Origin: Yoonia sp.
Lineage (GTDB): Bacteria; Pseudomonadota; Alphaproteobacteria; Rhodobacterales; Rhodobacteraceae
Length of the DNA stretch: 64,000 bases
Direction: 5' to 3'
NCBI RefSeq assembly: GCF_017854565.1
Contig: NZ_JAFMHJ010000004.1
Span: 1-64,000, forward strand
The translations under genes were made by a program, and so were the position numbers. Shown in pieces: positions 4,560-22,268 of the stretch (the stretch's first letter is position 1; the number at the start of each line of letters is the position of its first letter). The notes under the pieces are model-generated. The model ran no database searches, was not told where the DNA came from, and worked only from the letters and a program-made list of their open reading frames with translations.

Positions 4560-4877
4560 ATGACCCCAGCTACCTATGATTTGCCTCGGCAGTATGGCGG
4601 CGACACGACGCATCCGGTTCCGTTTGCGTTCAGCATTGATCTGACCGGCATCACTGCAGAATTCGCCCTTTCTCTGAACAAAGAAATGATCATCACCGCC
4701 ACGATTGGCAATGGTCTGAGCCTGAGTGGAAACACGATTACGCTCGAACCGTTCGTGGCGCCAAACCCGCAACTGAGTTCGGATATCTACCTTTACGACC
4801 TGCGCCTGACATTCCCCGACGGGGCGGTGCGCACGTATCTGACCGGGCAGATGCCAGTCCAGAGAAACCGCGCATGA
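4560..4877 (+). CDS. Small phage tail-associated protein of unknown function
   Basis: A 105-residue protein started by ATG with GAGGA 7-8 bases upstream. It has alternating hydrophobic/polar strands (for example [17 protein letters not shown]) and no signal peptide or membrane segment, so it is probably a small beta-sandwich. It overlaps the following collagen-like fibre gene by 4 bases (ATGA), which suggests coupled translation. Small proteins with this pattern often form the baseplate-attachment domain of fibres; that role is inferred from position only. Confidence 0.6.
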
Positions 4878-5689
4878 CTGACACCACAGCGATCACCGTG
4901 ACCCAAATCACCGAGACGGTCGCCGTCACCGTCGCACCGGAAACTGACACCGTGACGGTCACGGTCGCAGGTGGCGCGCCGGAGACCGTGGTTGTGACAG
5001 TATACGAGGGGGCTGCAGGCGCGGCAGGTCCACAGGGCGATCCCGGCCCATCTGGCCCGATAGGACCAGCCGGACCCACCGGCCCACAGGGGTTGCAAGG
5101 CCTGCAAGGCGATGCAGGAGTGATCGGAGAGGCGGGCCCGGCTGGTCCAGCAGGTCAGCAGGGAATCAAGGGCGATCAGGGTGATGTCGGCCCAGCAGCC
5201 GACAGCGATGGCGTTTTGGTCGAGGTCAGCGGGCGGTTTTATATGGAGACAAACAACCGCTGGGTGACATTCAACAAGGATTTAGGCATTTCGACGACGA
5301 ACCAGTTGGACGATGCCGGGACGGGCGTCGACCCAACCTATGACTGGGCGCAGAGCGGGCCATATGTGCGGGCCGGGTCGCAGATAAAATCCTTTTTTGG
5401 TCGGATCACCCCGTCGGACAATGAGTTGACGGCTGTCAATCTGCGGCTCTATTTACTGCGCGCCGAACCCGGCGGTGATTGGGGTAGTGGCACGGGTGTC
5501 GAAAACCGCGTGCTACTGGCGCAGTTGACCAATTTTCCAATCTCTAAATTCGCATGGCAAACGTTTGATGAGACCATCAATTACACCACGGATCGCCCCG
5601 GCGCACTGGTCGTCTATGTCCAGCCGGTAGGCCCGCTCGCGCAGCGCCGGTTCCTCGTTTTCAATTTTGGTGTGATCTTGCAGCCATAA
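4874..5689 (+). CDS. Collagen-like phage tail fibre protein
   Basis: A 271-residue protein in three parts. Residues 1-45 are almost pure Thr/Val repeats (TVTVTV), predicted beta strands. Residues 46-108 are Gly-X-Y triplets ([16 protein letters not shown] and similar), a collagen-like trimer rod. Residues 111-271 form a globular tip with many Trp, Tyr and Phe. Its start overlaps the previous stop (ATGA). Collagen-like rods are common in phage fibres, so the structural role is well supported. The Thr/Val section and the triplets are repetitive and could vary in length between strains. Confidence 0.75.
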
Positions 5690-14169: not shown

Positions 14170-17085
14170 TCAGGGTGTGCGGCTGTGAAGCTCCATCGTG
14201 ACGGTTCCGGTCCGGTTGAGTTTGTTCCATTGGCTTGTGCCACCCACAAGGGCGCGGAAGATGGCGCGCATGGAGGAGATATAAAGCAACTGGCGAAAGC
14301 CAAAGCGCAACAGCGGGATATAGAGCAGCAAGCGCCACTCCCATTTCTTTTCGAAATAGAAGACCGACAGCAGGTTGAACACGTCGACAAGTGTCAGCGC
14401 CAGATATGTGGCAATTGCGATGGTTGAAAGATTGCCAATCACCGCCGTGCCGTTCATCAGCAAGTCCGATCCAAACTGGAACAGCGTGATCACCAGAATG
14501 ATGTCGATCACGGGATAAAGCAGACTGCCGATCAGTTGCAGCAACAGCGCATCGGTGATCGACACAAGCCCCACCACCTTGCCCTCGAGTACGGAGCGCC
14601 GATGCTTCCAGGCGACCTGCAACATGCCATATGACCACCTGAACCGTTGTTTCATCAGATCTTTGAGCGTTTCCGGGGCTTCGGTATAGGACCGCGCATC
14701 TTCTTGATACATGACCTTGTAACCGGCGCGGTGGATCGCGACGGTCAAATCGGCATCTTCGGTAATCGTCTCGCCTGAAACGTAGTTCGCTTTTTCGACA
14801 GCCGCTCTGCGCCATGCGCCGATGGCACCGGGCACCACCAGAATGCCGCCGAACGTCTCGTAGGCGCGGCGCACGAGAATCTGACTGATCTTGTATTCAA
14901 TGGCCTGAAGAACGGTCAGTACATTGCCCGCATTGCCCACTTCGACCGTGCCCGCAACCGCGCCGACGCGTGGGTCCTGAAACGGTTGCACAATCATGCT
15001 GATGGCATCGGGATGCAAAAGCGTGTCAGCATCGACAATGATAAAGATCGGCGCTGACGACCGGGAAATCGCGAGGTCTTCGGCGTGCCATTTCCCGTGG
15101 TTTTCCTCGCGCAGGAGATTTACCTTTTCGTGGTGTTTCTGGAGGGTCTCTATGATCGCGACCGTATTGTCGGTCGATCCATCATCGACGACGGTGATTT
15201 CGAAGTTATCATAGTGTGACGCAAGGATGGATGTGATCGTCCGCGCGATCACCTTTTCTTCGTTATAGGCAGGCACGATGATGTTCACCGCTGGCCGGAA
15301 GGCGGGGTCAATCCCGGTCCGTGGCCGACGCAAGAGCGCCAGCACGAGGTAAATCGGCGCGCGGATCGTCACGATCAATGCCAGCAGCAGGATGTAGCCC
15401 TGCACGCCGATCCATGACAGCCCCAGAAACCCATAGGTAAAACGGTCGCGGGCGGGCGGCAGCGTGTTGGCGGGGGGCATGATCGTGACTGTGTCAAGAC
15501 CGCCGATTTCGCGCACCGAACGAAAGGCAAATCCATCCCTGTCCAACGCCGCAAGAATGGTGGGGAGTGCCGCGACGACATCGGCGGCATTCTGGGGCGA
15601 GAAATCAAAGCTGAGAATATTGATATCGCGCGCAAGTGCCGCAGCCCTGACGTCCGACACCAGCCGCGTCGTGTCGATTTTGCCGAACGCCGCGGGAAGG
15701 CTGGCAAAGACCGGAATATATCCGCGCGCCAGAAGCGATTTCAACTGGTTCAATTCTGTCTCGCGCACGGGCAGCGGCCCGTTCAACGCAGGCGTACGGA
15801 CGAGAATTGCCCCTATCCCCAGTTCTCCGGCCAGAATGCTTTGGGCCATGTTGTCGGTAATGCGCGACCAGATTTGCGTCGGCCACGATCTGCTTGTCTG
15901 CTGGGGTGAGGTTGTCCCGATCTGGTGGCCATGCGCCAGCACCTGTGCAAGCTGATCACGCGACAAAAGCAAATCAGACGCGCTGGCAAAGAAGGTCGTT
16001 TCGATGCCGTAGTCCGCGAGCAAGGTGAAAAGCTTTTGGGTGCTGGTCCTGTCGCCCAGACCGTTAAAGCTGAGAGCCAATGTTCCCGGACCGCCTGCGC
16101 CGAAGAAGGAAAAGGTCACCGGCTGCGGGATGCTTTGATACGTCTGGCCAACGATCCGGCCATCGCGCGCGTCGCGGTCTGTCTGTCTTAGCCCATCGGT
16201 CTGCGGGGCGGTCAGACGCGCAAAAGGGCCGTTGCCCGAGACGATCAGTTGATTGTCAAAGCGCAGCGGCCCGTCGATACCTGAATTGCCAGCGCGTGAC
16301 TGATCCGCCGCGGTCAACTGGGTCCAGATTGACGGGTCTTCGTAACCCAGCGGCCAGACCGCCACCTGCTGTCCCGCGACCGCCAATGCGCGCTGACTGG
16401 CAAAGGAGATACCATCGAGCAACCAGATCTGGTTGATCCGCCTGCTTGCATCCAGATAGCGGATGTTGGTGTTTCCGGCGTCTGGCTGAAAGGTTATCGC
16501 ACCCTGATGGATTGCGGCACGCTGCATCGCCATCGCGAAGGGGATACGCTCTGACTGGCGCTGGCCGCTGCGCCATGCCGTGCCAAACCCCCCGATTGCG
16601 AGGATGCTTTTTTCGGCGGGGACGAGGGCATTGAACCGTGGGATGTCATTTTCGGATCGGGTTTGCGAGGCTGTTGGCGAGGTTGGCCCGGGTTGCGGGT
16701 CGAACGTTATGGCGACGGCCCGATCGACGTCTTGCACCAAGGCCGCGTCCGTCCAAAATGCCGCGCCCGCTGTGCCGATAAGGCAGGTTTCCAGCCCCGA
16801 CCCGGTCAATCCGGCCCGAAGGGCGTTCAGCACGCGGCGCAGGACAACATGTGGCGTATTGGGATAGTCCGTGAGGTCCAGACAGACCCCGCCATCGCGG
16901 ACCGGTGGCGCAAGGGTTTGCAGGCTTTGCAGAAAAGGCTGGCTGGCCAGTATCGTTTCAACCGTATCGCGGCCCAATCCTGCCGAGGGGCGAATGATCG
17001 GATAGCCTGCGGGGACTCTTTGCCACAAGAACGGGTCGCGGAGGTCATCCAGCGGAAAGGCCCCGGCATCGCTGCCGCGCAGCAT
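14170..17085 (-). CDS. Exopolysaccharide synthase: NodB-like plus GT2 glycosyltransferase (downstream part of a stop-interrupted gene)
   Basis: A 971-residue frame. Residues 1-150 are the second part of a GH18-like domain whose catalytic acid motif is lost (CLDLTDYP). Residues ~320-550 are a NodB-like deacetylase domain that starts TLALSFNGLGD, where the usual metal-binding Asp pair is missing, so it is probably not a working deacetylase. A membrane helix follows (~570-600), then a family 2 glycosyltransferase with VPAYNEE, VDDGSTDNT, the DAD motif, EDADLT and the QRFRW motif near 800, then several C-terminal membrane segments. This order is that of synthases for beta-linked polymers such as poly-N-acetylglucosamine. 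The frame continues upstream without a shift, with a TAA at 17089-17091 two codons before this ATG. Confidence 0.8.
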   Translation of the reverse strand: MLRGSDAGAFPLDDLRDPFLWQRVPAGYPIIRPSAGLGRDTVETILASQPFLQSLQTLAPPVRDGGVCLDLTDYPNTPHVVLRRVLNALRAGLTGSGLETCLIGTAGAAFWTDAALVQDVDRAVAITFDPQPGPTSPTASQTRSENDIPRFNALVPAEKSILAIGGFGTAWRSGQRQSERIPFAMAMQRAAIHQGAITFQPDAGNTNIRYLDASRRINQIWLLDGISFASQRALAVAGQQVAVWPLGYEDPSIWTQLTAADQSRAGNSGIDGPLRFDNQLIVSGNGPFARLTAPQTDGLRQTDRDARDGRIVGQTYQSIPQPVTFSFFGAGGPGTLALSFNGLGDRTSTQKLFTLLADYGIETTFFASASDLLLSRDQLAQVLAHGHQIGTTSPQQTSRSWPTQIWSRITDNMAQSILAGELGIGAILVRTPALNGPLPVRETELNQLKSLLARGYIPVFASLPAAFGKIDTTRLVSDVRAAALARDINILSFDFSPQNAADVVAALPTILAALDRDGFAFRSVREIGGLDTVTIMPPANTLPPARDRFTYGFLGLSWIGVQGYILLLALIVTIRAPIYLVLALLRRPRTGIDPAFRPAVNIIVPAYNEEKVIARTITSILASHYDNFEITVVDDGSTDNTVAIIETLQKHHEKVNLLREENHGKWHAEDLAISRSSAPIFIIVDADTLLHPDAISMIVQPFQDPRVGAVAGTVEVGNAGNVLTVLQAIEYKISQILVRRAYETFGGILVVPGAIGAWRRAAVEKANYVSGETITEDADLTVAIHRAGYKVMYQEDARSYTEAPETLKDLMKQRFRWSYGMLQVAWKHRRSVLEGKVVGLVSITDALLLQLIGSLLYPVIDIILVITLFQFGSDLLMNGTAVIGNLSTIAIATYLALTLVDVFNLLSVFYFEKKWEWRLLLYIPLLRFGFRQLLYISSMRAIFRALVGGTSQWNKLNRTGTVTMELHSRTP

Positions 17086-17088
17086 GAT

Positions 17089-17583
17089 TTACGGACCGAC
17101 GGCACCAAATGTGTAGGCGTCGTAAAGGACGCTATCCAAATTTCGGCAGTTGGCCCGAAGACCTGACAATGCGGTTGGATCATTGAAGGGAAGATACCCC
17201 GCCACGCCGACAGACCGGAAGGAACGCGGCAACAAGCGCAGGCCGCAATCTGACCCGGTTGCCGATGCCATCACCAGCAGGCGGGCGGTGCCGATTGCGT
17301 TCAAATCATCCCGTGCGACGGCCAGCGGCAGGATTTCAGCAGCTTGTGCTGACGGCGCGGGCAGGGTGTAGGTGCGGTAGAGAAAATCGGTGGTCCAGAC
17401 GGTGATCACGGAAAATATCAGCAAAACCGCAAGGCCCAGACGCCGCGCACGTTGGCCGGACAAGTCCTCAAAAACTCTTTGAGGATCGGGCAATCGGAAA
17501 ACTTCTGTTTTCTCCAGCTTGTTCAACTTTCGCCCCGCGCACTCATCACATACCTGCCAAGACAGGACCACTACAAATCCCAT
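17089..17583 (-). pseudogene. N-terminal fragment of the GH18-like/NodB/GT2 protein, cut by an in-frame TAA
   Basis: A 164-residue frame in the same phase as the large glycosyltransferase frame, separated only by TAA and one ATC codon. It has a cytoplasmic start containing QRVFEDLSGQRARR, a single membrane segment (GLAVLLIFSVITVW), and the first part of a GH18-like domain (RSVGVAGYLPFNDP, LDSVLYDAYTFG). The domain is completed by the downstream frame, so the two are one ancestral gene of about 1,137 codons. The stop may be a true nonsense mutation, a sequencing error, or be read through. The start at 17583 is uncertain; a TTG near 17525 is also possible. Confidence 0.72.
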
Positions 17584-17676
17584 GTTACCATAAGATGCGG
17601 GTTTGCAGCTAGCGAAAGCTGGATTTTAGGCAATGTATCGGGTAGCATAGCTGGATAATCGAGAAATTATTCAAGA

Positions 17677-20181
17677 TTGAAAATGATCAGTCGCCGCACC
17701 GTGATCATGGCAACGACCGCACTACCGTTCGTGCATTTGCCTGTGCGCGCATGGGCTGATGACGCGTCGCAAAAATCACTGTTCCTGCTCTTGGATGCAA
17801 CGGCGCAAGACCTGCGGATCAATGATATTCGGCCTGTTGTCAGCGCCTTTGTCGCTGCCGGGATATCGGTTTCCGTCGTGTTGCCTGCCCTGTCAGACGC
17901 GGGGCCATCGGCGGCGCGGTCTGACGCAATTTACAGGTTTGCCGCCGAACGCGCGCTGGCAGAGCCGGGGCTTGTGGACATTGTCGTGGGCCTGCCGGAA
18001 ATAACGGCCACGCGACGCTATGAGGTTTTGCGTGCCCTGACCGAGGCGCGGCGCGGAATGGTGGGCATCTGGGGTATGCCCGCGCCGCCGGTCATTGCCA
18101 CATGGCAGCCCGCGACATATCCCAAGGTCGATCCCTATGCGATGCGATCAGCGGGCTTTCGGGTGCGATTTACCTTGCCCGAAACAGGCGGCGCGTCAGG
18201 TCTTGTGCCGCAAAGTTCCATCGCAGCACCGGATTGGGGGCAACTTGAACTTGCAGGTGGTGCGGCGGTGACGCTGGGTGCCGATGCCGGTAAGATACTG
18301 GGCGACATGGATGCCGCCGTCGGTGATCAGGTTCTTATGATTTCGCTGCGCCCCGGCGATACGGTTCCACAGGCCGCGCGTTGGATTGACCATCTGCAAC
18401 AGGCTGTTTGGGACGGGCGGATTTTCACGACGAGATCATCGGATTACATCCTTCAGGTCAGGCCGGGCGCGTCAAAGCTGATCGGACTGCTGATGGACGC
18501 GCGTGGCCATGCGGCGCAGACCGCGTCAATGGCCGCCTTCATGCAGGACCTTGACCGAAGCAATTTTGCCTTTGGGCGGCTGGCGGATGGGTCAGCCGCG
18601 ATCAAGGGCGATTGTATCCCCATTGCAGACGACGGGCCGGATGCGCCAAGCGATTGCGTGCTGTTGTCGGACGACACGGCGCTTGCGGGCGACAGTCTTG
18701 GGCGGATCGTTTTGCAGCCTTCGCATTTGGCAACCGGCTGGAGCGGCCCGGATGAGAACGGCAGGTTCGTCGTGCCGCTGGCCCGGTTCCATCCGGCGCA
18801 GTTTCTGCGGTCTCTGGACGCCGATCCAATGACGGACGCGGTTGTGCTGGTTTCCGCAGACGATGTTGCCACACCGCTGCAGCGGCAATCGCTGCTGGCG
18901 CAGTTTCAATTGGCGCGGCAGGACGGTTTGGCGCAATTCCATGGCGTGACGGATTATGTGGATGCACATTTGGCACCTGACGAGATCCTTGCGCGATATT
19001 GGTCAGACCGGCGTCGCAAGACCCAAGGCATGTCCGCGCCGACGGTCATGGGCACGGGCGACCGCGCGGCGTATCTGGATGATGCGGCATGGGCGTGGCG
19101 CTATCTTGATGAAACCGCGCATCGTGCAACGGGAGTTTGCGCGGGCACACGGCAGGGCGGGGCCAGTGTCACGCTGAACCGAGACGTGACGTTTTGGGAT
19201 GTGGCAAGCCAGATTCAGGGGACTATTGCCGCCCAAGAACTGGGGCTTGTGGCAAGAGAAGACGCGCAGGGGCGCATCGGTCTGGTCCTTGGGAATTTGC
19301 CGACCACCGCGATCGAAGGGCTGTCCTTGCCCACGGCCCTGTTCGATTCCGGGACGCTTGCGATCGTGAATGCGGGGTTTGATTCCTGCGACGTGGGGCG
19401 GTTTCTTTTGTCGTTGAAATGTGCGGTTGATGCGGGGTTGCTGACACCTGATCAGGCGAAAACGGTCGTGGGCCGATGGGATTTGCCGGCAACGATCAAG
19501 GATGGGCGGGCCTTTGGGTATGCCAGCGGCCAATGGCGGGATGTGACCCTGTCGCATTGCACGGCCTACGCACGACAGGGCTATGCCGCGTGGGGAATGC
19601 CGATGACGGACCCGATGCCCGCCGTCGATGAAAAAAGCACCGCAGATCATTATCTGCGCTTGCTATATATGGCCGACGATGTGGGCCATTATGGCACGGA
19701 ACCGTACCTGTTGGAGGCGATAGAGGGGCGTCTGAGCGCGCAATCGCGTTATCTGGCCGATATCTTGTTCGATGCGCAGCTGAGCTGGTTTGAGGACACC
19801 GGGCGTTTCAAATGCATTTCCGAGGCCCCGCTCAACTTTGCGCCATGGTTCAGTTTTCAGGGGCTTCGGCTTGGCCGGGAAGGGGAGAGTGCCTGGGTCG
19901 TTTCAAGCCGGAGCCGCGATCCACGGCATTCCAGCCCGGCGTTCCTGAGACGCGCCGCCGTGATCAGCGCCAAATCGGCCTATTTATGGTCGGCGGTCTA
20001 TCCGCATGCCTATTCTGACACACTTGTCGGCGTGATCCGTGAAAACGGACGGTCGGACGGTGGTGGCTTCTGCGTCGGGCTGTTCGAAAGCGACTTGTCT
20101 GCGATGCGTGACTACAGTGACTTGAATACCAACGGCATTATTTTGCAGGCCATCGCCCATAAATTCCGCGACCGATCCTGA
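17677..20181 (+). CDS. DUF3131 domain protein with Tat signal, exopolysaccharide locus
   Basis: An 834-residue exported protein. The N-terminus has SRRTVIMATTALPF followed by an Ala-rich cleavage region (RAWADDA), a Tat-type signal. Residues ~30-450 look like repeated alpha/beta barrel segments related to polysaccharide deacetylases but with no metal motif that I can find. Residues ~490-830 match DUF3131 (start DVTFWDVASQIQGTIAAQ, later FAPWFSFQGLRLG). DUF3131 proteins occur with GT2 synthases of extracellular glucans. It is divergent from the synthase with about 90 bases between the starts, so both may share a control region. No clear ribosome site precedes the ATG; the next ATG is 6 bases on. 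Confidence 0.75.
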   Translation: MKMISRRTVIMATTALPFVHLPVRAWADDASQKSLFLLLDATAQDLRINDIRPVVSAFVAAGISVSVVLPALSDAGPSAARSDAIYRFAAERALAEPGLVDIVVGLPEITATRRYEVLRALTEARRGMVGIWGMPAPPVIATWQPATYPKVDPYAMRSAGFRVRFTLPETGGASGLVPQSSIAAPDWGQLELAGGAAVTLGADAGKILGDMDAAVGDQVLMISLRPGDTVPQAARWIDHLQQAVWDGRIFTTRSSDYILQVRPGASKLIGLLMDARGHAAQTASMAAFMQDLDRSNFAFGRLADGSAAIKGDCIPIADDGPDAPSDCVLLSDDTALAGDSLGRIVLQPSHLATGWSGPDENGRFVVPLARFHPAQFLRSLDADPMTDAVVLVSADDVATPLQRQSLLAQFQLARQDGLAQFHGVTDYVDAHLAPDEILARYWSDRRRKTQGMSAPTVMGTGDRAAYLDDAAWAWRYLDETAHRATGVCAGTRQGGASVTLNRDVTFWDVASQIQGTIAAQELGLVAREDAQGRIGLVLGNLPTTAIEGLSLPTALFDSGTLAIVNAGFDSCDVGRFLLSLKCAVDAGLLTPDQAKTVVGRWDLPATIKDGRAFGYASGQWRDVTLSHCTAYARQGYAAWGMPMTDPMPAVDEKSTADHYLRLLYMADDVGHYGTEPYLLEAIEGRLSAQSRYLADILFDAQLSWFEDTGRFKCISEAPLNFAPWFSFQGLRLGREGESAWVVSSRSRDPRHSSPAFLRRAAVISAKSAYLWSAVYPHAYSDTLVGVIRENGRSDGGGFCVGLFESDLSAMRDYSDLNTNGIILQAIAHKFRDRS

Positions 20182-20189
20182 ATGCGCGG

Positions 20190-20723
20190 TCAGTTGTTGA
20201 GCGCAACCACCTGCGGATCGCCGGGGCCGAAAGGGATATCATAGCCGTTCAGTTTTTCGATATAATTGGACAGGGGCATGCCATAAGGATCGCGCAGATC
20301 TGCCCGCCCATCCGATTTGATGTATTGCGCCAGCGATCCCGCACCCAGCAGATGCGCCGCGGCGAGCATGCCGCTTGGCGTCAGTTCCATCGCGCCGACT
20401 TCGGTCCAGGCATAGCTGTCGATCTGCTGATCCTCGATGTAGCCCCACATGACATGCATCCATTCCACGGCCGCATCATCCTGGACCGCCGGGGCGTTGA
20501 GAAACTGGTTGGTCGAGTTGATCCCGTTTTTGCCGGTCCAGCCACCACTGAAGTTGTTGTCATATGGGTCGCGGTCGCGGCTGACGTAGCCGAGGTCAAT
20601 CAGTGCCGCCTCGCCAAATTGATAGGCGCCGATGAAATTGAGTGAATTGACGATTTGATAGTCCCCGCCGGATTCCATCATTTTCAAGGCGATAAGAAAT
20701 GCGCCAAAATTTGACATAGACAT
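20190..20723 (-). CDS. Lysozyme-fold protein, exopolysaccharide locus
   Basis: A 177-residue protein. AGAGGA lies 3-8 bases before the ATG at 20723, which is preferred over the ATG at 20774. The N-terminus, ALKMMESGGDYQIVN, followed by FIGAYQFGEAALIDLGY, resembles the lysozyme-like domain seen at the start of some secreted calcium-binding proteins of Alphaproteobacteria; Glu16 in MESGG would be the catalytic acid. There is no signal peptide, and no RTX repeats. It is convergent with the DUF3131 gene (8 bases between stops). It may cleave peptidoglycan or the polymer made by this locus; neither is shown. Confidence 0.65.
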   Translation of the reverse strand: MSMSNFGAFLIALKMMESGGDYQIVNSLNFIGAYQFGEAALIDLGYVSRDRDPYDNNFSGGWTGKNGINSTNQFLNAPAVQDDAAVEWMHVMWGYIEDQQIDSYAWTEVGAMELTPSGMLAAAHLLGAGSLAQYIKSDGRADLRDPYGMPLSNYIEKLNGYDIPFGPGDPQVVALNN

Positions 20724-21443
20724 AGTCCTCTCGGGCCCGCGACAAGCGGACGAGCAAAGGTAGTGCGACGCCAAGACGGAAAATCCAGATCGGATTCCCG
20801 TGCGGACGCCAATGAAGTTGCCGGAGCCTGCTCGGTTTGTTTGTCTTTGTTGTGATCGATTTTAGGACCGTATTGGCCAATTGCGGCCACATTAAGAACG
20901 CATGACCGATCTTGGGTCAACAAGGCAGCGCATCACCACACATGGGGTCATTTGCGCGAAACCCCGCCTATGCGGGCAATTCTTTGCCAATGTTCTTCTG
21001 AAATTGACGCAAATCATGGCAACAGACGGTGCCTGACTTGCAAGGCGACTTGCCGACGCAGACGCTTGCCCTGAATAACTGTGCTTTTTCTTGAAAATGG
21101 AGGCCGTCGCTCATAGCGTAAGGCATATTCGTTTCATGGGTCGATGGGCGGGGCCAGTGAAGCCCGCCGCGACCGGATTTGAGAAGTAGCCGCTTATGTT
21201 GTTTGTTATGCGCCAGTTACCTGCCCAGCGAACCGGCTTGTCGGTAAAGGATGGCGCATTCGGGGCCTGCAACGCGGGCGCATGCGCCGAACCACACAGC
21301 GGCGCAGCGAACAGATGCCGTGTCTTGCGTGGCCGCGCGGTGCGATTCGGGCAAGGGCACAGGTTTTTGGGTAACATCGCAAGACTGCGGGCTGCGGTGC
21401 CGCCGCGCATACCCGCAAAACGGCCAAACGCAGGCGCCCGAGG
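20724..21443. other. 720-base region with no convincing gene
   Basis: Between the lysozyme-fold gene and the deacetylase. Short frames exist on both strands but none has a ribosome site, family resemblance or sensible codon use. Weak dyads are CCCGC/GCGGG at 20963-20976 and TGACC/GGTCA at 20903-20919. The section near 20830-20880 is A+T-richer and may hold a promoter. Space for a small RNA exists, but I see no clear signature. Confidence 0.4.
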
Positions 21444-22268
21444 ATGAACAATCACGCCGCAAGAAGATACCTGCTTGCAGTTGCGGCCATTGCAGCGATT
21501 GGATTGGGTCTTGTGGTTCTGGGACCGCACTTGCGTATCGGCACGGAAGGTTCACCGGCGCCGAAACGCGGTATCGTCACCATCACCTTTGACGACGCGG
21601 GCCTGTCGCAATACGACGTCGGTTTGCGGGTGGCGCGGGCCGAGGGCGTTGTCGGGACATTGTTTGTGCCAACCGGGCTGGTCACGGACGCGAATGAACC
21701 GTCCTGGGTGATGAGCTGGGATCAAATACGTGATTTCCGCGATGCCGGCTGGGAGATCGGTGCCCATGGTGCCCACCATCTGCCCATGACCCAACTTGGC
21801 CCCACGACGATGGAAAGCGAGCTGACCGATCCAATCGACGATATCGGTGCGCAAATCGGCGTGCCCCCTGTGTCGTTTTCGTCACCGTTCGGAGACTTCA
21901 ACGATACGACGATCACAAGGATCATGGCATACTACGATTATCAACTTTCCTGGAAAGGCCACGGTGGCCGCAATCCCATCCCTGACATCGACCCGCGCTA
22001 TATAGGGCGATTGGAAGTGATCCCGGCGATGAGTTCTGCCGAAGTCTGCGGCGAAATGGTGCGCGCCGCCGAGACGGGGACATGGCTGGTCTTGCTGTTT
22101 CACACCATCGTCGCAGGCGAGCCCGTCGCCTATGAGGTGTCCGAGGCGGTCTATACCGAAGTTGTCACCTGTCTGGGGCTGCTCACGCGCAGGGGCGTGG
22201 TCGAAAACATGACAGTCCGCGATGCGATGGCCCTGATCACCGCGCAAGAAAGGATGCCCACGCAATAG
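21444..22268 (+). CDS. Polysaccharide deacetylase (NodB homology domain), membrane-anchored
   Basis: A 274-residue protein. Residues 6-27 form a signal anchor (YLLAVAAIAAIGLGLVVLG). The NodB domain begins at about 43. The metal and catalytic motifs are intact: TFDDAG (47-52) and the HGAHH motif near 110, plus the substrate-loop motif SSPFGDFND and a C-terminal LFHTIV with the His. It would remove acetyl groups from an N-acetylated polysaccharide in the periplasm. In contrast to the degenerate NodB part of the synthase, this is the likely active deacetylase of the locus. It starts at ATG with GAGG 2-5 bases upstream, a close spacing. Confidence 0.86.
   Translation: MNNHAARRYLLAVAAIAAIGLGLVVLGPHLRIGTEGSPAPKRGIVTITFDDAGLSQYDVGLRVARAEGVVGTLFVPTGLVTDANEPSWVMSWDQIRDFRDAGWEIGAHGAHHLPMTQLGPTTMESELTDPIDDIGAQIGVPPVSFSSPFGDFNDTTITRIMAYYDYQLSWKGHGGRNPIPDIDPRYIGRLEVIPAMSSAEVCGEMVRAAETGTWLVLLFHTIVAGEPVAYEVSEAVYTEVVTCLGLLTRRGVVENMTVRDAMALITAQERMPTQ

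Follow-up and report, generated by a model that had tools for sequence, protein, structure and literature searches.

The window analysed here, a 64,000-nucleotide stretch of DNA from Yoonia sp., holds two open reading frames that share one phase and are parted by a TAA. The question raised by this locus is whether they are two genes or a single gene that has been broken and, in the latter case, whether a product can still be made from it. The window lies within contig C78; the draft genome to which it belongs measures 3.5 Mb. Direct reading of the minus strand across the site gave GGT CCG TAA ATC ATG CTG CGC, with ATC at 17086-17088, and the frame of 164 aa upstream (17089-17583) was found to share its phase with that of 971 aa downstream (14170-17085), just as a sequence-only reading of the window had described them, separated by TAA and ATC before an ATG. 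That reading had also reported no further break, and a scan of both frames agreed, the TAA at 17089-17091 being the only stop. The features of the broken gene are as follows.

17092..17583, minus strand: N fragment, 164 aa: a cytoplasmic tail and membrane anchor, then the first part of the GH18-like domain, which carries conserved Cys 113 and 146
17383..17448, minus strand: predicted transmembrane anchor, residues 46-67, by hydropathy
17089..17091, minus strand: in-frame TAA, residue position 165 of the ancestral frame
17083..17085, minus strand: inner ATG, a possible restart with a weak ribosome site, 3 bases past the TAA
14170..17085, minus strand: C fragment, 971 aa, with the remaining GH18-like part, the NodB-like domain, the GT2 synthase and C-terminal membrane segments
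15469..16098, minus strand: NodB-like domain spanning roughly residues 496-705, with substitutions at the catalytic and metal positions
14626..15294, minus strand: GT2 domain, Pfam PF13641, 2e-38; DDGS, DAD, TED and QRFRW kept

The true start of the N fragment may be the ATG at 17583 or the TTG at 17526. A scan of 16900-17750 gave neither promoter-like nor terminator-like sites.

The two frames come from one ancestral gene

Homologues were sought in 56 genomes of the genus, 394 of the family and 390 of the order, and in the genera of five relatives, for two of which the genus set consisted of the relative itself only. Counting the window gene, 54 distinct homologues were aligned. The contig-end fragments L004 and L005 were kept out, as was L074, which is the window's own gene; the G534, G619 and G614 C113 places (open frames of 1180, 1180 and 1201) also stand outside the 54. 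A single open frame of 1078-1323 codons, stop to stop, was present in 50 of the 54 homologues. All 29 homologues inspected at the break (rows above 350 bits, the truncated L052 having been excluded beforehand) were collinear through the site, which in these rows is a loop varying in residues and in length. The nearest homologue, L033 of genome G181, is a single frame of 1131 codons, to which residues 36-163 of the N fragment align at 36-160 and residues 4-964 of the C fragment at 167-1129. A profile built from six relatives matched the window gene once, with one TAA inside the match.

The prevalence of single frames and their collinearity therefore support the view, put forward in the sequence-only reading, that the two window frames are one ancestral gene, and the comparison with intact homologues that it had proposed bears this out. 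Homologues divided at the same point, which it had named as the finding that would speak against one gene, were absent at the exact position; near it there was one, the frameshifted gene of G623, broken about 9 codons further on.

The gene is patchily distributed, being found in 29 of the 394 family genomes (E<=1e-60, own genome included), and 4 of the 56 genus genomes gave matches above the generic GT2 level, again with the own genome included. A wider contig scan returned one match at GT2 level, in a gut MAG, and a plasmid search found no near relative: its 32 records all had less than 60% identity, at least 25 of them at 28-32%.

The break lies near the start of a GH18-like domain

The product is best read as a membrane exopolysaccharide synthase with an N-terminal anchor, a GH18-like domain, a NodB-like domain, a GT2 domain and C-terminal membrane segments. 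GT2 enzymes carry the motifs DDGS, DAD, TED and QxxRW; all four are present here and the Pfam score exceeds the cut-off, which places the domain in GT2. The polysaccharide deacetylase Pfam match of the C fragment was weak. A profile of six intact relatives hit chondroitin, cellulose and hyaluronan synthases and NodB deacetylases, and it also matched the GH18 structure 3cz8 at model positions 178-383, in both cases among the 60 of 87 matches listed. Pfam GH18 was found in homologue L039, starting at profile position 72 of 317, and gave no match in the window fragments or in four other proteins searched alongside L039. The 3cz8 match and the L039 match from position 72 therefore suggest that the start of the GH18-like domain spans the break, lending indirect support to the earlier claim that this domain begins in one frame and ends in the other. 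By the alignment, the TAA is in a variable loop near the predicted start of this domain. The catalytic acid motif of GH18 is located on strand 4; the corresponding region, GxCLD, holds no clear Glu.

Hydropathy placed further membrane segments at 731-749 and as a group from 1003 to 1075. Because of these segments and the anchor at 46-67, the GH18-like and NodB-like domains would lie outside the cytoplasm and the GT2 domain inside. Four cysteines are conserved, at 113 and 146 upstream of the break and at 234 and 267 downstream. Cys 113 and 146 are kept in all 10 rows of the window's own clade (defined below) that hold the N part and, outside the clade, in 22 and 31 of 35 rows, respectively; Cys 234 and 267 occur in 35/35 rows outside the clade and in every clade row that covers them. 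This pattern suggests that the four cysteines, probably joined by disulfides, belong to one folded extracytoplasmic domain that extends across the break.

The stop is probably a recent nonsense mutation

An in-frame stop where relatives hold one continuous frame makes the window gene a candidate pseudogene. The possibility of relaxed constraint after the lesion was assessed on invariant columns, defined as those where at least 75% of the other clade rows are present and all of these agree. The window departs from 2 of the 77 invariant columns in GT2, against 0-5 of 75-80 for the other rows of the clade. For the remainder of the GH18-like domain the count is 0 of 11 (others 0-5 of 11-16) and for NodB 2 of 9 (others 0-3 of 7-10), L052 having been set aside in these two comparisons as it holds few of the columns. 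The window is thus within the range of the other rows, with no clear sign of relaxed constraint, and long decay of the gene was not supported. The lack of clear decay, together with a divergent partner gene that is open over its full length, therefore means either that the lesion is recent or that the product is still in use. The sequence-only reading had likewise suggested recent change, which the columns uphold, the event being undated.

We consider it probable that a recent, ordinary nonsense mutation has struck a patchily held polymer synthase, with a presumed loss of function. The mutation would have placed the TAA in the variable loop by the GH18-like start, and translation would most likely stop there, so that the cell would be left with an anchored stub of 164 residues in place of a working synthase. 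At best, reinitiation at the inner ATG might yield a trace of C part without its anchor. That the stop is real in the cell and abolishes function is our inference, as is the topology. Several observations count against a recent loss: the lack of clear decay and the open partner gene fit a working product as well, the ATG 3 bases past the TAA is at good spacing for reinitiation, and in G623 the homologue has its break only about 9 codons beyond the window stop. By a post hoc estimate, if breaks fell evenly, another one would lie no more than 10 codons to either side with a chance of about 20/1137.

The draft state of the genome (108 contigs, 97.43% complete, 1.7% contamination) and the otherwise clean frame, free of clear decay, would also fit an assembly or base-call error, or mixed strains, the gene being whole in the organism. 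The lesion, however, is an in-frame stop and not an indel, a long homopolymer is absent at the site, and the nearby genes that were compared with their families (RecJ, homoserine dehydrogenase, FBPase and sarcosine oxidase alpha) show their full length; we regard such an error as unlikely.

A clean frame on either side of the TAA is likewise what stop-codon readthrough into a full-length protein would leave. Against this, a stop at this position is absent from all 50 single-frame rows (L052 and L101 lack the aligned N part), TAA terminates the FBPase and sarcosine oxidase alpha genes in the window, and the RNA fold around the stop is ordinary (z 0.47). Among the 31 tRNAs found, an incomplete set in which Phe, Tyr, Cys and Ile are missing, there was no stop anticodon and hence no suppressor. 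With neither a conserved stop, nor a suppressor among the tRNAs found, nor an unusual fold, readthrough was judged very improbable.

The spacing of TAA, ATC and ATG could instead serve a functional split, in which reinitiation at the inner ATG gives a separate working C part, with or without an anchored N part. The conservation of the GT2 part agrees with this, as do two relatives: G623 has two overlapping frames that meet about 9 codons on, and in G068 the GT2 part stays open though the front half is missing. Yet the ribosome site at the inner ATG is weak. The earlier statement that none precedes this codon has to be softened to this extent: anti-Shine-Dalgarno pairing is -2.9 kcal/mol (17 bases scanned, on a scale uncalibrated by curated starts) and reaches -5.1 kcal/mol with two extra upstream bases, which is too distant for a normal site. 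Moreover, the C part would lack the sole membrane segment that precedes the GH18-like and NodB-like domains, two of the four conserved cysteines sit on the N part, and G181 and G446, the other rows of the four-row set that unites the window with G623, are single frames. As for a conserved two-gene arrangement, 1 of the 53 other homologues (L113, of G623) is broken nearby, 50 are single frames, and L052 and L101 are broken otherwise. A working split seems quite unlikely. Among the origins proposed in the sequence-only reading, a nonsense mutation is therefore the one we favour; readthrough fits poorly, and reinitiation might occur with an anchorless product.

Other family members are broken in different ways

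Besides the window gene, three of the aligned homologues are broken. L113 and L078 are one gene, that of genome G623; it carries a frameshift, with the N part in one frame as far as window residue 173 and the C part resuming at 175 in another. The frameshift lies at about 4374-4410 of L078 (about 11267-11310 of L113), with a run of eight G just upstream. In G068, where the gene is represented by L052 and L067 on two contigs, only the last part is left, behind a transposase-type gene pair.

L067, 6579-8827: transposase-type gene pair, in place of the expected front half of the G068 homologue

We take this pair to be IS21-like, and read the lesion as an insertion by which the front half was lost. 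The front half of the synthase was not found in the G068 genome, and the DUF3131 partner was absent from the 19 kb of the locus examined. In L101 (G559), a member of the canonical set, an in-frame TAG stands within GT2 at about 2020 and the aligned N part is absent.

The lesions are unlike in kind and in place, and we therefore take an accessory gene to have been lost independently in each case. The tree groups the window with G623, G181 and G446 as a set of four rows (support 98/87), of which G181 and G446 are intact; G623 joins G181 and G446 with weak support (91/44). We read the G623 frameshift as independent of the window stop, though its nearness leaves a small chance of a tolerated split. 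An excess of breaks in the clade with an inactive NodB domain was also considered and is not claimed, at 3/16 versus 1/38 (one-sided Fisher 0.073); before seven rows were added, the counts were 3/12 versus 1/35 (Fisher 0.046).

The window gene belongs to a clade whose NodB-like domain should be inactive

The NodB-like domain of the window reads SFNGLGD at motif 1 and GHQIGTTSPQQ at motif 2, and does not class as an active CE4/NodB domain. Losses were counted in the 11 clade rows that hold the NodB motifs, L052 being without most of the region. At motif 1 the second Asp is lost in 11/11 rows and the first in 5/11; at motif 2 the first His is lost in 11/11 and the second in 10/11 (kept in L037); and the motif 5 His is lost in all 11. 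TFDD or SFDD, the two His and HD are all retained in 35/35 rows outside the clade. Four of the seven added rows joined the inactive set, with the first Asp kept and the others lost, and three joined the canonical set. A tree of GT2 alone put the 13 clade rows on one side of a branch (100/99), including the fragment L004, which is without the NodB region and had been assigned to the clade beforehand as a near fragment. Loci with the NodB loss are the window (15469-16098), L033-L038, L113-L116 and L162-L165, most of them intact single frames. Judged by the roles that the excerpt of PMC10967932 gives to the two Asp of motif 1 and the two His of motif 2 in CE4/NodB deacetylases, the NodB domains of this clade should be inactive.

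The idea that NodB inactivity came with the decay of the window gene itself was rejected, because the same residues are lost across the clade, intact single frames included. A NodB domain kept in long open frames without its metal-binding residues suggests a binding or structural role, and the polymer of the clade would then either not be deacetylated or be deacetylated by another protein. This clade-wide loss outweighs the broken gene in importance, which is an ordinary case of an accessory polymer synthase lost in one lineage.

A stand-alone deacetylase and other neighbours of the synthase

Three genes of the locus lie beyond the start of the synthase.

17677..20181, plus strand: DUF3131 protein, the divergent partner gene, open over its full length
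20190..20774, minus strand: conserved 194-aa protein, Pfam match absent
21444..22268, plus strand: stand-alone polysaccharide deacetylase (CE4/NodB), motif residues kept

The DUF3131 gene aligns with its relatives over nearly the whole length. The 194-aa protein has 58-68% identity to relatives in nine other loci, and a frame with a collagen-like repeat (PF01391) lies at 4874-5689 of the window. Relatives of the stand-alone CE4 (P0003) stand beside the synthase in G181, G578, G529 and G580. At E<=1e-10, such a relative occurs in 5 of 12 inactive-clade genomes and in 1 of 11 canonical ones (G345); none was found in the other 7 inactive-clade genomes. A clade-wide transfer of deacetylation to a gene in trans fits only part of the clade and was rejected. 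When the canonical internal NodB domains were used as a profile, stand-alone frames were picked up only in L062, L115 and L116; the window CE4 gene and that of L114 escaped it.

A broader scheme would have the clade's deacetylase turned into a pseudoenzyme and its extracytoplasmic front half in the course of being dropped or detached from a GT2 polymerase that is retained, with the CE4 of the same locus providing deacetylation in trans in part of the clade; on this scheme the breaks in the window and in G623 would mark a permissive loop where a split is tolerated, and not dead genes. We hold this scheme to be improbable, and retain a recent nonsense mutation as the account of the window stop.

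Comparison with known systems

The open-licence literature searched yielded no description of a clade of three-domain GH18-NodB-GT2 synthases. The poly-beta-1,6-GlcNAc synthase PgaC/IcaA (TIGR03937) has a related GT2 synthase domain, matched by the window at 190 bits; this is far below the cut-off of 422.3 and leaves the gene outside that family, and in the window gene the same chain also carries, N-terminally, a GH18-like and a NodB-like domain. PgaB combines NodB with a glycoside hydrolase according to the excerpt of PMC5933820. The excerpt of PMC7112194 describes Gram-negatives that have no detectable pgaA or pgaD and in which glycosyltransferases are joined to PgaB-type deacetylases. In both cases, as in the window, deacetylase- or hydrolase-like domains are tied to a GT2 synthase. 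The fusions of PMC7112194, as far as that excerpt covers them, have the glycosyltransferase at the N terminus and no canonical hydrolase domain, whereas in the window clade the order is GH18-like, NodB-like, GT2 and the NodB residues are lost.

For the lesion itself, the bacterial pseudogenes treated in the excerpt of PMC2720952, which arose by independent nonsense or missense lesions, likewise show one gene inactivated repeatedly, in another organism and another pathway. For the NodB-like domain, the nearest parallel is with the pseudoenzymes EcCDA-2VYO and 4M1B, which in the excerpt of PMC10967932 keep the NodB fold without the metal-binding His and the active-site Asp; here, the loss is common to a whole clade of synthase fusions.
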